Positions 43,298 to 58,987 of a stretch of 64,000 nucleotides of DNA are shown here, one piece after another (positions within the stretch are counted from its first letter, which is position 1; each line of letters begins with the position of its first letter). The DNA is from Nitrospira sp. GTDB taxonomy: Bacteria; Nitrospirota; Nitrospiria; Nitrospirales; Nitrospiraceae. The notes beneath the pieces were generated by a model. The model was not told the DNA's origin, did no database searches, and worked only from the letters and a program-made list of their open reading frames with translations. Made by a program: the position numbers and the translations under genes. The DNA is taken from the NCBI GenBank assembly GCA_023248215.1, contig JAHFEW010000001.1, positions 62,001 to 126,000 on the forward strand, written 5' to 3'.

Positions 43298-43399
43298 CCT
43301 CAACGCCACGTTTATTCATCTTGGCTATCCGCGCCTGGTCGAATGGCCGGGCTTTGCGCTGGACCGTTGCACGGGCGCGGGATCATTGGGGAGGCTCGC

Positions 43400-45844
43400 A
43401 TGGTCTTGTCGGTCAGAACAGTGTGTCATCTGTGTGTCGGATTTGTCCTGGGCGCAAGCACGCTCGGGGTTGCGCATGTGCACGCGCAGGAATCTGCGAT
43501 GCCGGTGAGCAAGGCGCGCACGATTGCGGGAACGGTTCAGAATCAGGATCTCCGGCGTGTTCCTCAGGCGAGGGTAGAGGTGAAGGATCAGGAAGGGACC
43601 ATGGTCGGGTCGGCGGTGGCGAACGAGGCCGGAGAATTTACCGTGGATATCCTGGACGAGGGAACCTATTCCGTGAGCGCGGTGCTGGATACCAATCGAA
43701 GCGAATATGCGATCATCAAAGTCGGCGCCGAGCCGCCCGCCCCGGTCACGCTCACGCTCTCGAAGACCAACGAGATCGCACTCGAAGTCGTATCCTCGTT
43801 GCCGGCCATTCAGTACAAGGCGTCGAGCGAAACCTATGCGCTCAGCCGGAAGGAAATCGAGACCCTGCCGCGCGGGAACAACAACGATCTCCATGATGTG
43901 CTCATCACGATTCCGAGCGCCGTCTACGGCTCGCTCAAGCAGGTCCATATTCGCCAGGACCATGCGAATTTGCAATTGCGGATCGACGGCGTGCCGATTC
44001 CGGACACCGTCTCGTCCACGTTTTCCGATGTGATCAGCCCGCGTGCCTGGGAACGGGCGGATATCATCCTCGGCGGCATGGAAGCCCAATATGGCAACAA
44101 GGCGGCGGCCGTGTTGGATATCACGACGAAGAGCGGGACCAAGCCGTCCTTCGGATCAGCCCAGATGATGGGGGGATCGAATCAGACGATCAATCCGTCC
44201 TTTGAGTACGGCGGCACGATCGGCGAAAAGTTTCGGTTTTATATCTTGAACAGCTACATGAGCACGAATCGCGGGATCGAGCCGCCGACCCTGGGGCACT
44301 CGATCTTCCATGGGCAGAGCGAGCGGAACCAGACCTTTATCCGCGGCGACTATCAGCATGACAACAAGAACAACTTCACCTGGCTGTTCTTGAACTCGGT
44401 GGCCAAGTATCAAATTCCCACGACACCCGGCATCGAAGTGGATCCAAGCGGGCAGATGCTGCCGTTGCTTCAGGCGAGTCAGCCGGGATTCACACCCGTG
44501 GCCTCGCAGGCGATCAATGAATTTCAGAAAGAGAACAATCAATACGGACACATGGTGTGGCGGCATGATGTGAATGCGAATAACTTTTTCAGCCTGGCAG
44601 GATATTTCCGCCATACGCGGGCGACGTTTAAAACGGACCCGCTCAATGTGCTGGCCTACACGGCCGACCCGTCCGAGCCGTTTTCGGCGTCGGATCAGGA
44701 TCGCAACGCCTATTCGACCGGCCTGCGTTTCGATTACACCTACGTGCATAGCAAGCAGCATCTCATCAAAGCGGGGTTCCAGATCGACCGGACCCAGGCC
44801 GTCAACAAGACGCGACTCTTTACCTTTGCGGACGACGGAGCGGGAAATCCCACCGGAGACCTGCTCAGTCTCAATGCCGACAACCGCCAGATCGGTTATC
44901 GCCAGGAGTTCTGGATCCAGGACCAGTGGAGTCCGAACGATCAGTGGACCTTCAACCTCGGTCTGCGGGGCGATGCCGTGCAGTATTTGTGGAACGAAGG
45001 GCAGGTGAGTCCGCGTGTCGGGGCGACGTACAAGTACAACCCTGCGAACGTCTTCCATGTGTTTTACGGCCGGATGTTCACGCCGCCGAATCTGGAAGCG
45101 ATCTCTTTCGCGAAGCTGAACACGATCGGGACAAGCGCTCAGCCGGAGGACACGACCAACAATACGGTCCGGGCCGAACGGGCGCATTACTTCGAGGTCG
45201 GCAGCTACCATGCCCTGAATCGCTACGCGACGTTGCAATTTACCGGCTGGTATAAGCTGAGCAACTTCCTGTCCGACGCCGGACAGTTCGGCACCACGCC
45301 GTTGTTGAACTATTTTGCCTTTGAGCGCGGTTGGCAGCGAGGCATCGACGGAGCGTTGAAACTGCAACTGGCCGAAAATCTGACGGCACGCGGCAATGTG
45401 GCTTGGGGGCAATGTAAGGGTTACGGCCTGCAGTCGGGCCATTTCCTCTTGGATGCCAAGGAACTCTCGGACATCAACTCACAGGGCGGCGTGTTCTGCG
45501 ATCACATGCAGACATTGACGAGTTCGGCGATCGTGAGTTATCGACTCCTGGAGCGTACGACGTTTACGGGGCAGATGCTCTTCGCCTCTGGTTTGCGCAC
45601 CGCAGAAAACGAAGAGGCCAAGACCAATTCCAGCCACAGCCCCTCGTACACCATTTACAATCTGTCGATCGCGCATGTCTTCCCGTTGCCCTGGGAAGGA
45701 CAGAAGTTTCTGCTGGGATTCGACATCATCAATTTGTTGGACCAGAAGTATTTCATCAACCAGGGTGAAGGCAGTATCGGGTTGGGTGTGGCTCATGCGG
45801 GGATGCCGAGGTCGTTCTTCCTCCGAGGCCAGTGGTTCTTCTAA
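43400..45844 (+). CDS. TonB-dependent outer-membrane receptor
   Basis: 814 residues from ATG 43400, which has GGGGAGG five bases upstream. A signal peptide covers about 1-30. Residues about 38-115 form a carboxypeptidase-regulatory-like domain (TIAGTVQNQDLRRVPQARVE), then the plug with PRGNNNDLHDVLITIPSAVYG and VHIRQDHANLQLRIDGVPIP. The rest is beta-barrel, ending with the aromatic residues QWFF required for outer-membrane insertion. Substrate is unknown; the His-rich neighbour hints at a metal or metal chelate. A palindromic element begins 3 nt after the stop. Confidence 0.9.
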   Translation: MVLSVRTVCHLCVGFVLGASTLGVAHVHAQESAMPVSKARTIAGTVQNQDLRRVPQARVEVKDQEGTMVGSAVANEAGEFTVDILDEGTYSVSAVLDTNRSEYAIIKVGAEPPAPVTLTLSKTNEIALEVVSSLPAIQYKASSETYALSRKEIETLPRGNNNDLHDVLITIPSAVYGSLKQVHIRQDHANLQLRIDGVPIPDTVSSTFSDVISPRAWERADIILGGMEAQYGNKAAAVLDITTKSGTKPSFGSAQMMGGSNQTINPSFEYGGTIGEKFRFYILNSYMSTNRGIEPPTLGHSIFHGQSERNQTFIRGDYQHDNKNNFTWLFLNSVAKYQIPTTPGIEVDPSGQMLPLLQASQPGFTPVASQAINEFQKENNQYGHMVWRHDVNANNFFSLAGYFRHTRATFKTDPLNVLAYTADPSEPFSASDQDRNAYSTGLRFDYTYVHSKQHLIKAGFQIDRTQAVNKTRLFTFADDGAGNPTGDLLSLNADNRQIGYRQEFWIQDQWSPNDQWTFNLGLRGDAVQYLWNEGQVSPRVGATYKYNPANVFHVFYGRMFTPPNLEAISFAKLNTIGTSAQPEDTTNNTVRAERAHYFEVGSYHALNRYATLQFTGWYKLSNFLSDAGQFGTTPLLNYFAFERGWQRGIDGALKLQLAENLTARGNVAWGQCKGYGLQSGHFLLDAKELSDINSQGGVFCDHMQTLTSSAIVSYRLLERTTFTGQMLFASGLRTAENEEAKTNSSHSPSYTIYNLSIAHVFPLPWEGQKFLLGFDIINLLDQKYFINQGEGSIGLGVAHAGMPRSFFLRGQWFF

Positions 45845-45846
45845 CC

Positions 45847-45967
45847 GGATGCTGAAACGGGCCACCAACTTCGTTCTCGGCTCCACAACATCCTCAACGT
45901 AGCACGAGGCTACGCCTCCGGTGTTGTGGTCGCCTGCGGCCTGGTTGGATGGCCCGTTTGAGCATCC
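45847..45967 (+). repeat. Long palindromic element, copy A
   Basis: The outer arms GGATGCT (45847-45853) and AGCATCC (45961-45967) continue inward as GAAACGGGCCA and TGGCCCGTTT. A separate inner stem CCACAACA/TGTTGTGG and an innermost CGTAGC-ACGAG-GCTACG hairpin make a nested structure. Shared motifs: CGTTCTCGG at 45872, TACGCCTC at 45911, CCTGCGGCCT at 45933. It starts 3 nt after the receptor stop. Confidence 0.8.
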
Positions 45968-45987
45968 GTTCTGTGATGAGATAGGAT

Positions 45988-46431
45988 ATGACTGAAATGC
46001 GATGGGGCTTAATAATAACCGTTGCGATAGTTTCGTATTGGCCGGTTGCGGCCTATGCCGTGACCGGCGATGAGGCCACGCATGAGGCCGACCATGCGCT
46101 GGATGCGGACATTATCGAATTGCCGGAAGTCCACGTCCACGGTCTGCCGCTGAATAAAGATCAGCAACTGGGGCCGGTGCCGAAGTCGACTCCATGGCCG
46201 GCAATTCCATCATCGTTGGACGGCAAGCCCATCGACGATTGGATGAAGGCCCGTCTGCTCGTCTCGAAGGATGCGCAAGTAACGGTGGTGGTCTTGGAGC
46301 CGGCGAAACACCGGGAACTGACAGTCGCCGGCATGATGGCCTTGAACAAGTGGACCTTCGCCCCCCAACTCAACGGTGACGATCCGGTCGCCGGGGAACT
46401 CACTGTTCGTATTCACTTCAGAGCGCAGTAA
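45988..46431 (+). CDS. Exported protein with TonB C-terminal-like domain
   Basis: 147 residues. The N-terminus (LIITVAIVSYWPVAAYA) looks like a cleavable signal peptide rather than the long anchor plus Pro-rich spacer of classical TonB. The mature part starts His/Asp-rich (DEATHEADHALDAD, PEVHVHGLPL). Residues about 85-145 match the TonB_C pattern: LLVSKDAQVTVVVLEPAKH, then ALNKWTFAPQLNGD and ELTVRIHF. It follows a TonB-dependent receptor on the same strand. Whether it is membrane-anchored or free in the periplasm is uncertain; no exbB or exbD lies nearby. Confidence 0.65.
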   Translation: MTEMRWGLIITVAIVSYWPVAAYAVTGDEATHEADHALDADIIELPEVHVHGLPLNKDQQLGPVPKSTPWPAIPSSLDGKPIDDWMKARLLVSKDAQVTVVVLEPAKHRELTVAGMMALNKWTFAPQLNGDDPVAGELTVRIHFRAQ

Positions 46432-46434
46432 ATC

Positions 46435-46778
46435 ATGACACGCACGACGGTCACCAAAGGCAGCGGGAACGTGTTTCGGGATCTAGGATTTTCCGAGGAA
46501 AAGTCCATCGAATTGATTCTGAAAAGCAGCCTGCTTCAAGCCCTTCAAGAGACAATCAAAGGCCGTGGATGGAAGCAAGTGGAGGCGGCGGACCAGCTGG
46601 AAATTGACCAAGCTAAAGTGTCGAAGCTCTTAGCCGGTCAGATGGCAGGTTTTTCCATCGAACGCCTGGTTTAGTTTCTGTCCCTGTTAGTCTAAGACGT
46701 TGAGTGACGGTCCGTAAGGCTCCGCGTGGCCGACGGCGAGGGGCAGTACGAGCAAGGGTGGATAAGATACCCGCCTAG
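46435..46778 (+). pseudogene. Decayed XRE-family (HTH_37, HigA-like) antitoxin
   Basis: The first 79 codons give a normal helix-turn-helix (GWKQVEAADQLEIDQAKVSK, LLAGQMAGFSIERLV) up to TAG at 46672. Reading on in the same frame gives FLSLLV, a second stop at 46693, then DVE and a third stop at 46705. Shifting frame at about 46706 gives TVRKAPRGRRRGAVRARVDK, the usual basic tail of this family. Intact members read RLLRFLxxLGQDVEIxVR at this place. So the gene carries two nonsense changes and a frameshift. No toxin gene is adjacent. The shortened 79-aa product could still be made. Confidence 0.65.
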
Positions 46779-46910
46779 GAGCCTGTCCGAGTAATCGGTT
46801 TCGCAAAATCTCTACGTGCACATTTGGCGCAGGATCAACGATCGCACTTCGGTGAGGGGTTCAGATACCCCTGAAATGGGCATATTTTTGAATACTCGGA
46901 CAGGCTCCTA
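46776..46910. mobile_element. MITE-like element with perfect 18-bp inverted ends
   Basis: TAGGAGCCTGTCCGAGTA at 46776-46793 is repeated perfectly inverted at 46893-46910. The 135-bp unit has no ORF; an internal AGGGGT/ACCCCT hairpin lies near 46855-46875. Each end can be read as TA followed by GGAGCC, as expected for a TA target duplication of IS630/Tc1-type transposition (inference). Its left end overlaps the last codon of the antitoxin remnant. Confidence 0.6.
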
Positions 46911-46931
46911 GAAATCTGGGTGGTGTAGTTC

Positions 46932-47102
46932 ATGGATAAAGAATTATTTGAATCCGGTATTAGGAAGTTGAAGAGTGAGTTGATGATTGTGTTTTGGGCT
47001 GTGTGTGGGCGAACCTACGGCCACCTGATTAAGAGTCCCGCCGAAGACCTACCTCAGGACACTGAGCAGAACCAATCGTCAGCAAAAGAGGAGGATTCGT
47101 GA
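46932..47102 (+). CDS. Hypothetical small protein, 56 aa
   Basis: ATG 46932 to TGA 47102. The sequence has a basic helix (SGIRKLKSELM), a short hydrophobic part (IVFWAVCGRTYGHL) and an acidic, Gln/Ser-rich tail. No ribosome site stands out and no family is recognised. It lies in the accessory region between the MITE-like element and an AT-rich membrane protein. It may be a real small gene or chance. Confidence 0.3.
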   Translation: MDKELFESGIRKLKSELMIVFWAVCGRTYGHLIKSPAEDLPQDTEQNQSSAKEEDS

Positions 47103-47138
47103 TCGTACACCTCATCACGGATGATGGTGCGTCAGGAT

Positions 47139-47165
47139 GTTTTGGCACCAGGTTGGCACCAAAAC
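47139..47165. repeat. TTGGCACC direct repeat inside a GTTTTGG/CCAAAAC palindrome
   Basis: TTGGCACC occurs at 47142-47149 and 47153-47160, framed by GTTTTGG (47139-47145) and CCAAAAC (47159-47165). It may be a regulatory or recombination site; nothing else supports this. Confidence 0.35.
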
Positions 47166-47251
47166 TTTATCCAACGCCGGCTTATAGCGAGGCTGTGGTC
47201 TCTATGCTATGTATAGTACTCTATATGATCTAGTGTGCCGCTCTAAAGACA

Positions 47252-48622
47252 ATGGATAAAGCGGGTTCCTCAGAAATCGCATTGCACCTCCGAACGGTAC
47301 ACTTTTCTCTGGTCTTAATCTGTATTTTGGTAGGATTTTCACTCTTTGGCTATTCATCAAGTGAGCCTAATGCCATTCATCAACAGTTCGAATATATTTC
47401 CAGAATCCAGAAAAATTGGATGACTTGGACGAAAAGATTTGGAACCGAGCAGATTAAATGGCTCAAGGATCAGGGCCTTGGGTGGCCAGACACGATAAAG
47501 AGCGAAATTTATATTCCTTCAGAAGAGTTGACCCGTAAAAACCTTCCGCAGCGGGATAATGGTTGGACAGCAAGGCCGTTGTACAGTCCGATCTATCTCT
47601 ATCTTTCAGTAAACCTTGCTTCAGGTTTACGGCATGAAATTCTTGGTTTGGGATGGCCGCGCGAGGACGAAACAGAGTTTATTCCTGGGGGCTACCATGC
47701 AGTCGGGAATCCAAGGCTTGATACTATAGAGGAGTTCAGACAATTCTGGAACGCTTCAAATAATGTGGGGGCCTTCATTGTTAAGGACATCTCGGAGGTG
47801 GCTTACGCTGTTTCGAACGGCGAAGTAAAAGCGGCGTTGCGTTGGATCCCGAGTCCGAAACGTCACCAGGGACCTCAACTGAAACTCGGACGTATGAATA
47901 TCGGGCTGATAGAAGTTGGGGATTACTGTAAAGATATTAAAGAGCTTTTAACGTCCAGGTGGAGTCCGCAGTTCAATGTGCTTTTCTGTGGCCAGGTACC
48001 GCCGAGACTAAACGAACAGCCCTCGCAGATCCTGGTTCTCCCAGCTAGATACAAGGACGAACCAGTGCCTGTGAATCTGCGAGTCTGGCTAGCCGATCAC
48101 TTCAAATTCTCCTCGGCGGGAGGGAAGTTTGAGGAGACCTTTCCGGAGCTTTACGACTTCGTCAAAAAAAATCCGCAGATGCGGTTTAACGACGTCGAAC
48201 GGCTTCTTCATTCTGAACTGCAACGTGAACGGTCCAGTGAAAAGGTGGAGTTTCTTGGTTTAAGGTTTCGAGAAAGGGATTTGGCCAGCTGGGGGGCATT
48301 CTTTATTGTGATTGTTCAGATTTATTTGGTGCTTCACCTTCGAGTGCTTAGCGCACGGTCGCAGGTCACGGATCATGTTTTTAAAACCGCATGGATTGGG
48401 CTTTATCCTGATTGCTTTAGTCGTACCATATCGCTTCTTACAGCCTCCTTCCTTCCTGTTGCTGTCCTGTTTTATGGAAGAGTCCAGCTCGGATTTTCAT
48501 GGCCTGTGTTTATCTTATTGGCATTAGGTTTTGTATTGTCTATTGAGACAGCCAAGCTCTTGTGGCGTCTGCCAAGACAGCAAGCCAATGTGACTTCCAG
48601 CCATGTAGAGCCCGCTGATTAA
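47252..48622 (+). CDS. Orphan membrane protein of unknown function
   Basis: 456 residues with one N-terminal membrane segment (about 15-35: FSLVLICILVGFSLFGY), a large extracytoplasmic domain (about 40-345) with several Trp/Tyr-rich stretches (for example YSPIYLYLSVNLASGL), and about three C-terminal membrane segments (around 353-370, 390-415, 420-440). The coding sequence is visibly richer in A and T than all neighbours, and codon use differs (many ATA, AGA, TTT), which suggests recent transfer. I do not recognise a family. The large loop between anchors suggests a sensor or envelope role, but this is a guess. Confidence 0.6.
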   Translation: MDKAGSSEIALHLRTVHFSLVLICILVGFSLFGYSSSEPNAIHQQFEYISRIQKNWMTWTKRFGTEQIKWLKDQGLGWPDTIKSEIYIPSEELTRKNLPQRDNGWTARPLYSPIYLYLSVNLASGLRHEILGLGWPREDETEFIPGGYHAVGNPRLDTIEEFRQFWNASNNVGAFIVKDISEVAYAVSNGEVKAALRWIPSPKRHQGPQLKLGRMNIGLIEVGDYCKDIKELLTSRWSPQFNVLFCGQVPPRLNEQPSQILVLPARYKDEPVPVNLRVWLADHFKFSSAGGKFEETFPELYDFVKKNPQMRFNDVERLLHSELQRERSSEKVEFLGLRFRERDLASWGAFFIVIVQIYLVLHLRVLSARSQVTDHVFKTAWIGLYPDCFSRTISLLTASFLPVAVLFYGRVQLGFSWPVFILLALGFVLSIETAKLLWRLPRQQANVTSSHVEPAD

Positions 48623-48828
48623 GGGTCACCAGGTATTTATGAATTCCCTTCTTCCCTCTCTCCGCAAGATCAAACTGCAACCCCCTCGATCCTTCGTCCA
48701 GGCTGTTTTTGTCGGACTATCCAGAGTAGGTAGTCGCCGCCTTGTCTGTCTCCGTACTGCCAGGTCGCGATGTCTGTTTCCGCGTTTGACGATTGACGAA
48801 TGATGCGTGAGGCTTTATCGTCCTCCTT

Positions 48829-49416
48829 ATGAACTGGGATGAGAGTCTCTTTCACGCCATCAACGGCATGGCCGGGCAGTCGGCCACATTTGACCGGCTC
48901 ATGGTGGAGCTGGCCAAGCCTGGCAACCTGTTCTACCCCGTGATTCTCGCCGCCTGCTATTGGCTGTGGAGCAACCGGCGTGAGTGCCTGATCGGCTCCG
49001 TGATGTTAGCCGGTGTCATCGGCGCTACGGACGCGCTGGGAACCCAGCTCAAAGGTTTGGTTCAGCGCCCGCGTCCTTGCCTGAGCCTGCAGGAAGCGCA
49101 GAAATTGCTCGGCTGCGGCGGCGCCTTTTCCTTCCCGTCCAATCACGCCGCCAATACGGCGGCCGCTGCCGCCTTCTTCCAAGTCCTGTATCCGCGATCC
49201 GGTTGGATCAGCTGGCCCCTGGTGCTGGCGATCGGCTTCTCCCGTGTCTACATCGGTGCCCATTATCTGACGGATGTGATCGGGGGGTGGGCGGTGGGTG
49301 GAATGATGGGGGCGGGGGTGGCCTGGTTGCTCTGTCGGTGGTCTCGCTTTCGTCCGGCTCGCACAAGCGTCACGCCCGTACCTGCTCCTCAGACTCCTGC
49401 CGGATCGATGTCCTGA
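48829..49416 (+). CDS. PAP2-family membrane phosphatase
   Basis: 195 residues with five or six hydrophobic segments. The three phosphatase motifs are present: KGLVQRPRP, SFPSNHAAN and SRVYIGAHYLTDVIGG, with the catalytic His in the last two. Members dephosphorylate undecaprenyl pyrophosphate, phosphatidic acid, or lipid A. With a large polysaccharide locus elsewhere in the window, recycling of undecaprenyl pyrophosphate is a good candidate but unproved. The region before it (48623-48828) has no recognisable gene. Confidence 0.88.
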   Translation: MNWDESLFHAINGMAGQSATFDRLMVELAKPGNLFYPVILAACYWLWSNRRECLIGSVMLAGVIGATDALGTQLKGLVQRPRPCLSLQEAQKLLGCGGAFSFPSNHAANTAAAAAFFQVLYPRSGWISWPLVLAIGFSRVYIGAHYLTDVIGGWAVGGMMGAGVAWLLCRWSRFRPARTSVTPVPAPQTPAGSMS

Positions 49417-57464: not shown

Positions 57465-58179
57465 GGCGAGCCTGTGATGTATGAGGTGAGGGTTTACGTG
57501 GTGACGGCGAGTCTTCCGCTACGATGGGGCGGTGCGTGTTGAGCATCGGCGCAACGGCTTGCGCGACTGCGCGGGCGACCGCGTCTTTTGCGGCCCGTGC
57601 AGAGACCACCTTCATTCGCCTGGGATGACGCTTTGCCAGGTCGAGAAAGCCGGCGCGAACTTTTCGATGGAACCGAAGGGACTCACGGTCGAGTCGATTC
57701 TGGTCGGCGGCGGACCGCCGCCGCGCCAGACCGGTGGCAACCGGTAGATCGAAGATCAACGTCAGGTCCGGCGTGATCGCGTGGGTGGCGAGGCGGTTGA
57801 GTGACCGGAGCATTGAGAGATTTAATCCTCGCGCATACCCCTGATAGGCCAGGGTGGAATCGCTGAAACGGTCGCAGAGTACGATAGCGCCTTCCGCCAG
57901 GGCTGGTTCGATGACCTGCCTGACATGTTGGCAGCGGGCGGCGAAAATCAGGAAGGCTTCGGTCTCGGGCGCGATCGGTTCACTCGCACGATCCAGGAGG
58001 ACCGAGCGGACTTTTTCGGCGAGCGGGGTTCCGCCTGGTTCTCGGGTCTCCACGGTGACATACCCTTCACTCCGGAGAAACTCGCCCAGGAGTCTGGCTT
58101 GGGTCGACTTGCCGCACCCTTCGATTCCCTCAAGCGTAATGAACAGGCCTCGGGGGTGTCGCCTGGGTTGAATCATCAT
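57451..58179 (-). CDS. tmk: Thymidylate kinase
   Basis: 242 residues. P-loop FITLEGIEGCGKSTQARLL, DR motif in VLCDRFSDSTLAYQGYARG and the LID region ARRRSAADQNRLDRE. A C-terminal extension of about 30 residues (THRPIVAEDSPSPRKPSPHT) is longer than in E. coli Tmk. It phosphorylates dTMP to dTDP. The second ATG at 58176 is an alternative start. Confidence 0.94.
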   Translation of the reverse strand: MMIQPRRHPRGLFITLEGIEGCGKSTQARLLGEFLRSEGYVTVETREPGGTPLAEKVRSVLLDRASEPIAPETEAFLIFAARCQHVRQVIEPALAEGAIVLCDRFSDSTLAYQGYARGLNLSMLRSLNRLATHAITPDLTLIFDLPVATGLARRRSAADQNRLDRESLRFHRKVRAGFLDLAKRHPRRMKVVSARAAKDAVARAVAQAVAPMLNTHRPIVAEDSPSPRKPSPHTSQARHALR

Positions 58180-58252
58180 TCTGGTCCAGAAAATCCACGG
58201 AGAAAGAAGGGCCGAATCCTATTCCAAGTGATTGAAAATAGCAAGAAAAGGC

Positions 58253-58282
58253 TTGCGACGATTGGTGAAAGACCAGTATCAT
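58253..58282 (+). promoter_or_regulatory. Possible promoter of the DUF502 gene
   Basis: TTGCGA (58253-58258) and TATCAT (58277-58282) with an 18-bp spacer, about 30 nt before the ATG at 58313. The -10 matches five of six positions. Confidence 0.38.
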
Positions 58283-58312
58283 GGCGCTCTACCCAGGACC
58301 CCACAGCCACAC

Positions 58313-58987
58313 ATGTTAAAAGCCTCATTAAAACGTTATTTTCTGACCGGTTTGCTGGTCATGATCCCCTTCTGGGGGACCGTCCTGATTTTGAAGACGC
58401 TGTTTGTCAGCCTGGATGGAATTCTTGGAAATGCGACCGCTCGCCTGGTGACCCCCGGCTACTATGTGCCGGGATTGGGGATTGTCGCGTTGGTCCTGCT
58501 CATTTTTGCGACCGGACTCTTTGCGGCGAACTTTATCGGTCGCCATGTCGTGCGACAGTGGGAAAATTTACTCAACCGTGTCCCGGTCGTCCGCGGAATC
58601 TATTCCACCATCAAATCGATGATGGACATTCTGTCGTTCGCGGAACGCGAGACCTATCGCCGCGTGGTGTTGATCCAGTTTCCCAAAAACGGTCACTACT
58701 GTTTTGCGTTTGTGACCGGCGTGACGAAGGGCGAAATGCAGCAGCTCTCGCCGGATCCGCTGGTACATGTGTATGTGCCGACCTCGCCCAACCCCACCTC
58801 CGGATATTTCCTGCTGGTGCCCGAAGGGGAGGTGATCGCCGTGGATATCACGGTTGAAGAAGCGATGAAGTTGATCGTCTCCGGGGGACTCTACACACCG
58901 ACTCCTTCATCGGGCGCGCCGTCGCAGGCGAATGGAAAGAAGTGGTCGACTATCAAACAACCTGACGCAGGCGTCCAGGTCGGTTGA
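58313..58987 (+). CDS. DUF502 family membrane protein
   Basis: 224 residues from ATG 58313; the longer open frame upstream has no start support. Two membrane segments (YFLTGLLVMIPFWGTVLILK and GLGIVALVLLIFATGLFAAN) are followed by a soluble domain with RVPVVRGIYSTIKSMMDIL and HVYVPTSPNPTSGYFLLVP, the DUF502 (PF04367) signature. Function unknown; plant relatives (COV) act in vascular patterning, which says little about bacteria. Confidence 0.82.
   Translation: MLKASLKRYFLTGLLVMIPFWGTVLILKTLFVSLDGILGNATARLVTPGYYVPGLGIVALVLLIFATGLFAANFIGRHVVRQWENLLNRVPVVRGIYSTIKSMMDILSFAERETYRRVVLIQFPKNGHYCFAFVTGVTKGEMQQLSPDPLVHVYVPTSPNPTSGYFLLVPEGEVIAVDITVEEAMKLIVSGGLYTPTPSSGAPSQANGKKWSTIKQPDAGVQVG

Follow-up and report, generated by a model that had tools for sequence, protein, structure and literature searches.

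The window analyzed here is a 64,000-nucleotide stretch of a Nitrospira sp. contig (JAHFEW010000001.1, positions 62,001 to 126,000 of the forward strand; assembly GCA_023248215.1), and the coordinates below are those of the window unless another contig or locus is named. The gene under study is an ORF on the plus strand (47252–48622) coding for an orphan 456-aa putative membrane protein. With a GC content of 0.471, it ranks lowest among the 41 non-overlapping ORFs of at least 130 aa found in the window, the other 40 having a mean GC content of 0.590 (standard deviation, 0.019; minimum, 0.556), which places the orphan at z = −6.3. Its GC content at third codon positions (GC3), 0.486, is the second lowest of the 41 values (mean, 0.688; standard deviation, 0.052; z = −3.9), and the sliding GC content is 0.47–0.48 at the orphan versus mostly 0.57–0.62 in the surroundings. 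The initial annotation, which described an AT-rich gene of deviant codon use in a GC-rich setting, was thus borne out. Given the composition of the orphan, the probability of an open frame of this length arising by chance is about 1e-10. Another AT-leaning ORF of the window (57925–58857; 310 aa) has the minimum GC3 of the window (0.47) and belongs to no Pfam family.

Hydropathy analysis of the orphan protein revealed one N-terminal hydrophobic segment (residues 8–38) and three C-terminal ones (343–370, 388–411, and 410–438), separated by about 300 residues, in agreement with the topology proposed from the sequence earlier. The charge distribution suggests that the region between these segments faces outside, and the assignment to which we commit is that of a predicted inner-membrane protein whose periplasmic part comprises about 300 residues. 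Searches of Pfam, PADLOC (0 families), NCBIfam, PHROGs, and PDB sequences returned no family match, as expected from the initial annotation. Homologues were detected in none of the 28 sister genomes (in the genus, only the genome of the window itself, one of 29, has the gene), in none of 99 further relatives, in none of 394 further genomes sampled from the phylum (the sets overlap), and in neither the plasmid nor the phage collections. Six exact 8-residue patterns, which miss distant relatives, found no copy in genome_contigs and viral_contigs, and the C-terminal 124-residue piece had two weak plasmid matches (E-values, 0.5 and 7). Structure prediction without an alignment was unusable, with a mean pLDDT of 39.0 for the whole protein and 36.3 for the outside domain alone.

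The orphan lies between two landmarks conserved in the genus, both on the plus strand: a TonB-dependent receptor with a TonB_C-like gene on the left (43343–46431; receptor in 27 of 29 genus genomes) and a PAP2 phosphatase on the right (48829–49416; 23 of 29). Comparison of the site between these landmarks in sister genomes allowed the borders of the AT-rich segment to be located. The orphan sits between two copies of CTGATTAAGRGTC, a word corresponding to the antisense anticodon loop of tRNA-Lys(CTT). The left core, CACCTGATTAAGAGTC (47022–47037, plus strand), has two mismatches to CCGCTGATTAAGAGTC, and the right core, CCGCTGATTAAGGGTC (48612–48627, plus strand), which lies 1590 bp beyond it, has one; the TAA stop codon of the orphan is inside the right core. 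A degenerate 3′ half of tRNA-Lys(CTT) on the minus strand (46995–47037) ends in the left core and represents the displaced target fragment; blastn matched it at 86% identity to positions 4–47 of the reverse-complemented tRNA-Lys of the same genome (E-value, 9e-9). The left core also opens a 140-bp unit (47022–47161, plus strand) that is recurrent in the family and resembles the P′-arm end of the att site of a tRNA-Lys integrase. This arm unit has an nhmmer E-value of 2.4e-38 against a profile whose 16 source sequences include the window copy itself, and it ends in a double arm repeat, TTGGCACCA-GG-TTGGCACCA (47142–47161, plus strand). Beyond the right core, on the minus strand, there is the truncated 3′ end (48637–48726; 75% identity; E-value, 1.5e-14) of a gene for a protein of about 600 aa, which adjoins the site on the right in sisters. 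No further core-like sites with up to two mismatches were found elsewhere on the plus strand of the window, which contains no tRNA gene, and no integrase was found between the cores.

To the left of the cores, a 79-aa HTH_37 (antitoxin-type) ORF (46435–46674, plus strand; Pfam E-value, 1.1e-17) is followed by a 133-bp MITE-like element (46777–46909) with perfect 17-bp terminal inverted repeats, of which only a 28-bp partial match was found elsewhere in the genome, near the end of contig C50. Both features are real, yet they do not border the AT-rich segment. The MITE was rejected as a carrier, its terminal repeats stopping at 46909, outside the cores.

In sister genome G001, matches to window positions 47025–47165 (82%) and 48609–48696 (81%) lie only about 320 bp apart, both contain CTGATTAAG, and a different small AT-rich ORF is found between them. 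The direct tRNA-Lys-derived repeats, the att-like arm, and the other cargo present at the site in sisters strongly support import of the orphan segment. The imported origin proposed in the initial annotation, which had invoked the position beside an antitoxin remnant and a MITE, can therefore be retained on the strength of the cassette borders and not of composition alone, with the antitoxin-type ORF and the MITE being neighbours and not the carrier. Close homologues in every sister genome, named there as the finding that would speak against import, were not encountered (0 of 28). It is very improbable that the orphan is a resident, fast-evolving lineage gene of unusual composition that the sisters have lost: the intact ORF is the sole point in favor of this, and besides the lack of homologues in the 28 sisters and the other genome sets searched, the segment stops at the cores and other cargo takes its place in sisters. 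For an imported cassette, many sisters having no core at the site of the window (G002 and G006 have only a near-core, CTGATTTTGAGTC) is an observation on the opposite side. Moreover, since the left core carries two mismatches and the tRNA half is degenerate, the window copy may be fixed.

The identity of the core word was examined across the genus. An extended word, CCGCTGATTAAGRGTC, occurs in 25 of 29 genus genomes, with a single occurrence in 21, and the reversed pattern gave no hits. ARAGORN analysis of 19 loci revealed tRNA-Lys(CTT) at seven, all of which are core loci away from any arm unit, and an eighth unit-free core locus given to the program is interrupted by a contig end; the core word is the anticodon loop of this tRNA read in antisense. 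Fragments of tRNA-Lys adjoin the gene for the ~600-aa protein also in G001, G023, G011, G026, and, weakly (E-value, 4e-4), G009, and in G015 such a fragment precedes the arm unit.

The arm unit proved to be a member of a family. Copies were found on two other contigs of the window's own genome, in G001, in G015, and, in part, in G023. A count of the double repeat TTGGCACCNNNTTGGCACCA in the 147 family genomes gave 34 places, spread over 19 genomes with up to seven in one (reversed control, 0), and the regions around these repeats were searched with the unit profile built from 16 copies. A scan of 84,980 species, each represented by one genome, for the core plus the double arm repeat yielded 12 genome_contigs loci, with Nitrospira or Nitrospirae in the record titles of 11 and Nitrospinota in that of one. 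The distance from CTGATTAAG to the second repeat was 137 or 145 bp in all 12, the pattern permitting 123–153 bp. No match to the arm unit was obtained in phage and plasmid records, and the strict pattern had 0 hits in viral_contigs. The unit encodes an in-frame tail (LIKSP...EEDS*) that would form the C-terminus of the integrase in a free element. The mean entropy of this tail by codon position is 0.63, 0.44, and 0.56 over 12 units (the 140-nt ones, with L154 left out) and one unit contains an in-frame stop; the tail is not clearly under coding constraint. In genome G278, a small protein (MATNxKPxxTLRCGxIKATIWxN...) is encoded inside or near three units (L193, L190, and L191), and the copy scanned had no Pfam match.

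Altogether, 40 distinct units were examined for a far-side border, in 41 rows (L207 was entered twice), with genome_contigs loci L146–L155 (L154 among them) and L157 not counted; for ten of these eleven, a locus already in the count lies on a contig of equal length. In 18 of the 40, a second core (13 units) or the next unit (five) was found no more than 4.5 kb further on, while shuffled cores gave a mean of 0.04 of 41 rows and a maximum of two. Outside these 18 are the G015 segment, the right core of which has more than two mismatches, and a G023 segment carrying SoFic that runs from core to core without a unit of its own. The bounded cassettes measure 254–3885 bp, with a median of about 1.36 kb, five of them run directly into a further unit in tandem, and the interior GC content is below the flank mean in 14 of the 18, and not in four. 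The 22 units without a second core within 4.5 kb are explained partly by contigs ending there and partly, perhaps, by decay.

The 18 cassettes contain 29 ORFs of 75 aa or more, and a Pfam scan of all of them yielded no integrase match. Recognised cargo includes Imm32-like, FRG, Lcl_C, GDSL lipase, SMBP, FG-GAP, carbonic anhydrase, DUF1264, YnfA plus MerR, sulfatase, metallophosphoesterase, and ArdC. The sole match of an ORF in G423 is PADLOC candidate family PDC-S15, common to FRG proteins. In total, 14 of the 29 ORFs have no Pfam match at an E-value of 0.01, and for a further ORF the only match, to RICH, is weak and falls short of the cut-off of that family. Two cassettes of G265 are 3.4–3.9 kb long with several ORFs, a short frame in a G265 cassette matches a DDE transposase, and the 254-bp bounded segment of G023 has no ORF. 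Defence- or conflict-like cargo was found in four of the 18 cassettes, and FRG (twice), TIR, and Fic adjoin units that lack a second core.

Mostly short cassettes, some of them in tandem, that end on one side in a unit of about 140 bp resembling a recombination site and hold mixed, orphan-rich cargo, could also be taken for integron cassettes with attC sites or for a CALIN. The integron recombination site has the consensus GTTRRRY. The core described here is instead a piece of tRNA-Lys without such a site, the arm repeats are direct, and the single-stranded folding of six units was no better than that of their shuffles (z, −1.03 to 1.27). With attC-like folding not observed, the integron reading was rejected, and its probability is considered negligible.

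Different cargo between the same borders was observed at two sites. At the site of the window, the orphan in the window's genome (G000) is matched by an Imm32-like gene in G001 (466 bp), two ORFs in G015, and SoFic in G023. At the second site, genomes G181 and G260 share the left flank (87%), the unit (94%), and a stretch of about 100 bp spanning the right core (79%), with unrelated interiors, an FRG gene versus a 157-aa ORF; about 160–220 bp just left of the unit fail to align. FRG genes adjoin units at three places with unrelated left flanks. A 1.33-kb segment with SoFic shares 89% identity between G023 and G424, which belong to different genera, and the alignment ends no more than 15 bp beyond the core in both, the core of G424 being the start of the next unit. 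Homologous recombination between the tRNA-Lys-derived repeats and shared flanks might also swap interiors and produce the present differences without an integrase. The conserved outer borders and unit of the G181/G260 pair, inside which the interior differs, agree with this, as flanking homology would suffice there; however, tandem units and the occurrence of units at many loci would be left unexplained, and the shared core is only about 16 bp long. Such an origin is regarded as improbable.

A candidate for the integrase family was found at the tRNA-Lys gene of the window's own genome, which is overlapped by an integrase-like frame (...KVWHQKLAPTAEM...GGPCRGRTCGPLIKSQLLYQLS). In a single comparison, this integrase-like end shares 53% identity over 43 residues with the end of a complete integrase of G410 (E-value, 1e-12). 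It contains two copies of TTGGCACCA, whose starts lie 124 and 111 bp to the left of the core word, and in the arm unit of the window the corresponding distances are 117 and 128 bp to the right, so that the spacing of the repeats is unequal (13 bp at the integrase end versus 11 bp in the unit). Taken together, the integrase end and the unit would make up a lambda-type arm–core–arm layout, of which the cassettes appear to retain one arm. Among the 24 tRNA-Lys loci read, the double repeat stands beside two (in the window's genome and in G013) and a single copy beside one more; the remaining 21, one of them covered for 40 bp, have no TTGGCACCA. The integrase frame at tRNA-Lys runs off contig C41, and the only other integrase match in the genome is a fragment with three stops. 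The G410 integrase, on contig C84 (L216:12403–13725), is a complete tyrosine integrase (PF00589; E-value, 1.5e-27) with TGGCACCA twice near its 3′ end, and it lies about 8 kb from a degenerate unit (E-value, 7.9e-4; no core) adjoining an FRG gene. This unit, weak and lacking a core, may be part of the same element as the integrase.

At locus L156, a unit is followed by a terminase-like gene (PHROG terminase large subunit; E-value, 3.5e-28). The integrase-bearing L196/L216 and L214 resemble L156 by eye only, and the 477-aa ORF of L196 had no Pfam match. These loci are candidates for an autonomous partner phage or satellite.

The unit at the end of the L156 region with its terminase-like gene, the degenerate unit about 8 kb from the complete integrase on G410:C84, and the degenerate state of the window copy would also be compatible with fixed remnants, that is, with larger tRNA-Lys prophages, satellites, or islands that have lost the integrase and most genes and involve no cassette movement. 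Decay of larger elements is likewise the origin given for cis-mobilizable elements (CIMEs) in PMC5704250. Nevertheless, 18 segments have a core at the far side and many of them hold one or two ORFs, their 29 cargo ORFs have no integrase match and five run directly into another unit, cargo differs between the same borders at two sites, and FRG cargo stands beside units at loci with unrelated left flanks. We regard fixed remnants as a possible, though clearly less favored, explanation. The reading we prefer, with a probability of roughly two in three, is that window positions 47022–48627 represent an integrated, integrase-less, att-flanked cassette (CIME-like) that was moved by a tRNA-Lys integrase, the movement being deduced from sequence comparison.

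According to this preferred reading, the cassette would consist of a core, the 140-bp att arm unit, one AT-rich cargo gene, and a second core. A family of tyrosine integrases that target tRNA-Lys would use an attachment site of which the arm unit would form the P′ half and the 3′ end of the integrase gene the other half. A circular form (core, arm, and cargo) would recombine at the core by means of a tyrosine integrase from a coresident tRNA-Lys prophage or satellite. Insertion would take place either in tRNA-Lys itself or in a scar derived from it earlier, and arrays would lengthen through repeated insertion. What we infer for the model is the circular form, the action of an integrase, whether in trans or in cis, and mobility at the present day. 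An integrase-less cassette family seems to move genes, mostly singly and in some cases defence-like ones, between bacteria of the Nitrospira type. More tentatively, Nitrospiraceae might possess an integron-like gene capture of separate origin, in which short half-att cassettes, built from a tRNA-Lys core and a double-repeat arm, are captured, stacked, and exchanged in trans by the tyrosine integrases of resident tRNA-Lys prophages or satellites. If so, the cargo pool would comprise defence genes, metabolic genes, and orphans such as the present membrane protein.

In PMC5704250, CIMEs are described as decayed ICEs or IMEs. Of four features by which CIMEs may be recognised, two were found here: attL-/attR-type repeats (the cores at 47022 and 48612, with the tRNA-Lys half at the left) and a lack of integration and transfer genes, the window cassette being a single family-less ORF. 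As regards origin by deletion, no deletion series was seen, and the L156 unit begins the region with the terminase-like gene. Flanking att-type direct repeats, no integration gene found, and tandem arrangements of the kind that accretion with other elements would give are the points of likeness to the CIMEs of that account, from which the present segments differ in being mostly 0.5–2 kb long with few ORFs, and in having a conserved arm unit, many loci, and same-site cargo differences (PMC5704250).

The nearest described analogue that we met are the ssrA islands of Dehalococcoides that lack an integration module, 15 of which, in the part of the account concerned, "might be" cis-mobilizable (PMC3146451). 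They likewise form tandem segments between direct repeats of the end of an RNA gene, and low GC content is reported for the vcr island; in contrast, their target is the tmRNA gene, their recombinase is a serine recombinase, and they carry dehalogenase and other genes (PMC3146451). A short cassette with a shared arm unit is not described in that part of the source (PMC3146451). In working, the cassettes resemble integron cassettes and CALINs, as outlined in the relevant section of PMC11389934, in that a gene is joined to a recombination site, arrays form, the integrase is elsewhere, and cargo is diverse; the site here, however, combines a phage-type att arm and a tRNA-Lys core and is not a folded attC. 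With tRNA-targeting islands and prophages (PMC4383910), they share the tRNA target, the displaced tRNA fragment marking one end (the tRNA-Lys half at 46995–47037), and, in the genome of the window, an integrase-like frame overlapping the tRNA. Unlike such islands, the window cassette has no integrase of its own and restores no tRNA gene. Among the titles and abstract openings of the matches listed, no account of such cassettes in Nitrospira or of the arm unit was found, and a search for Nitrospira, prophage, and tRNA-Lys together returned no publications.

With regard to the orphan itself, the initial annotation proposed a defence, sensory, or envelope role, and defence appears likelier than the other two, because several other cassettes and units carry defence-like genes. 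By analogy with that cargo, a defence or exclusion-type protein may tentatively be suggested; a role in the envelope or in stress is slightly less probable, and the rest of the odds fall to some other function or none. What an unclassifiable AT-rich gene does gain is a genomic address, the DNA between two cores being candidate cargo. By searching for cores and units, the mobile genes of Nitrospira-type bacteria can be listed in part, among them FRG, SoFic, TIR, ArdC, Imm32-like genes, and many orphans. It also becomes testable whether phage attachment half-sites can by themselves form the basis of gene cassettes in the way that attC sites do in integrons; were the integrase to act in trans, cassette arrays could arise by a second route, one of phage origin.

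Between the TonB receptor and PAP2 (window positions 45842–48829) lies a large variable region. It spans 3 kb in the genome of the window and 4 kb in G016, 24–56 kb in ten sisters that have both landmarks on one contig, and about 970 kb in G009. The ~600-aa family adjoining the site is present in 24 of 29 genus genomes. It has no convincing Pfam match, and neither have the 936-, 1593-, and 1772-aa proteins encoded at L063:1388–10378 and L101:728–7786. These very large proteins and the ~600-aa family are perhaps parts of one unnamed system.
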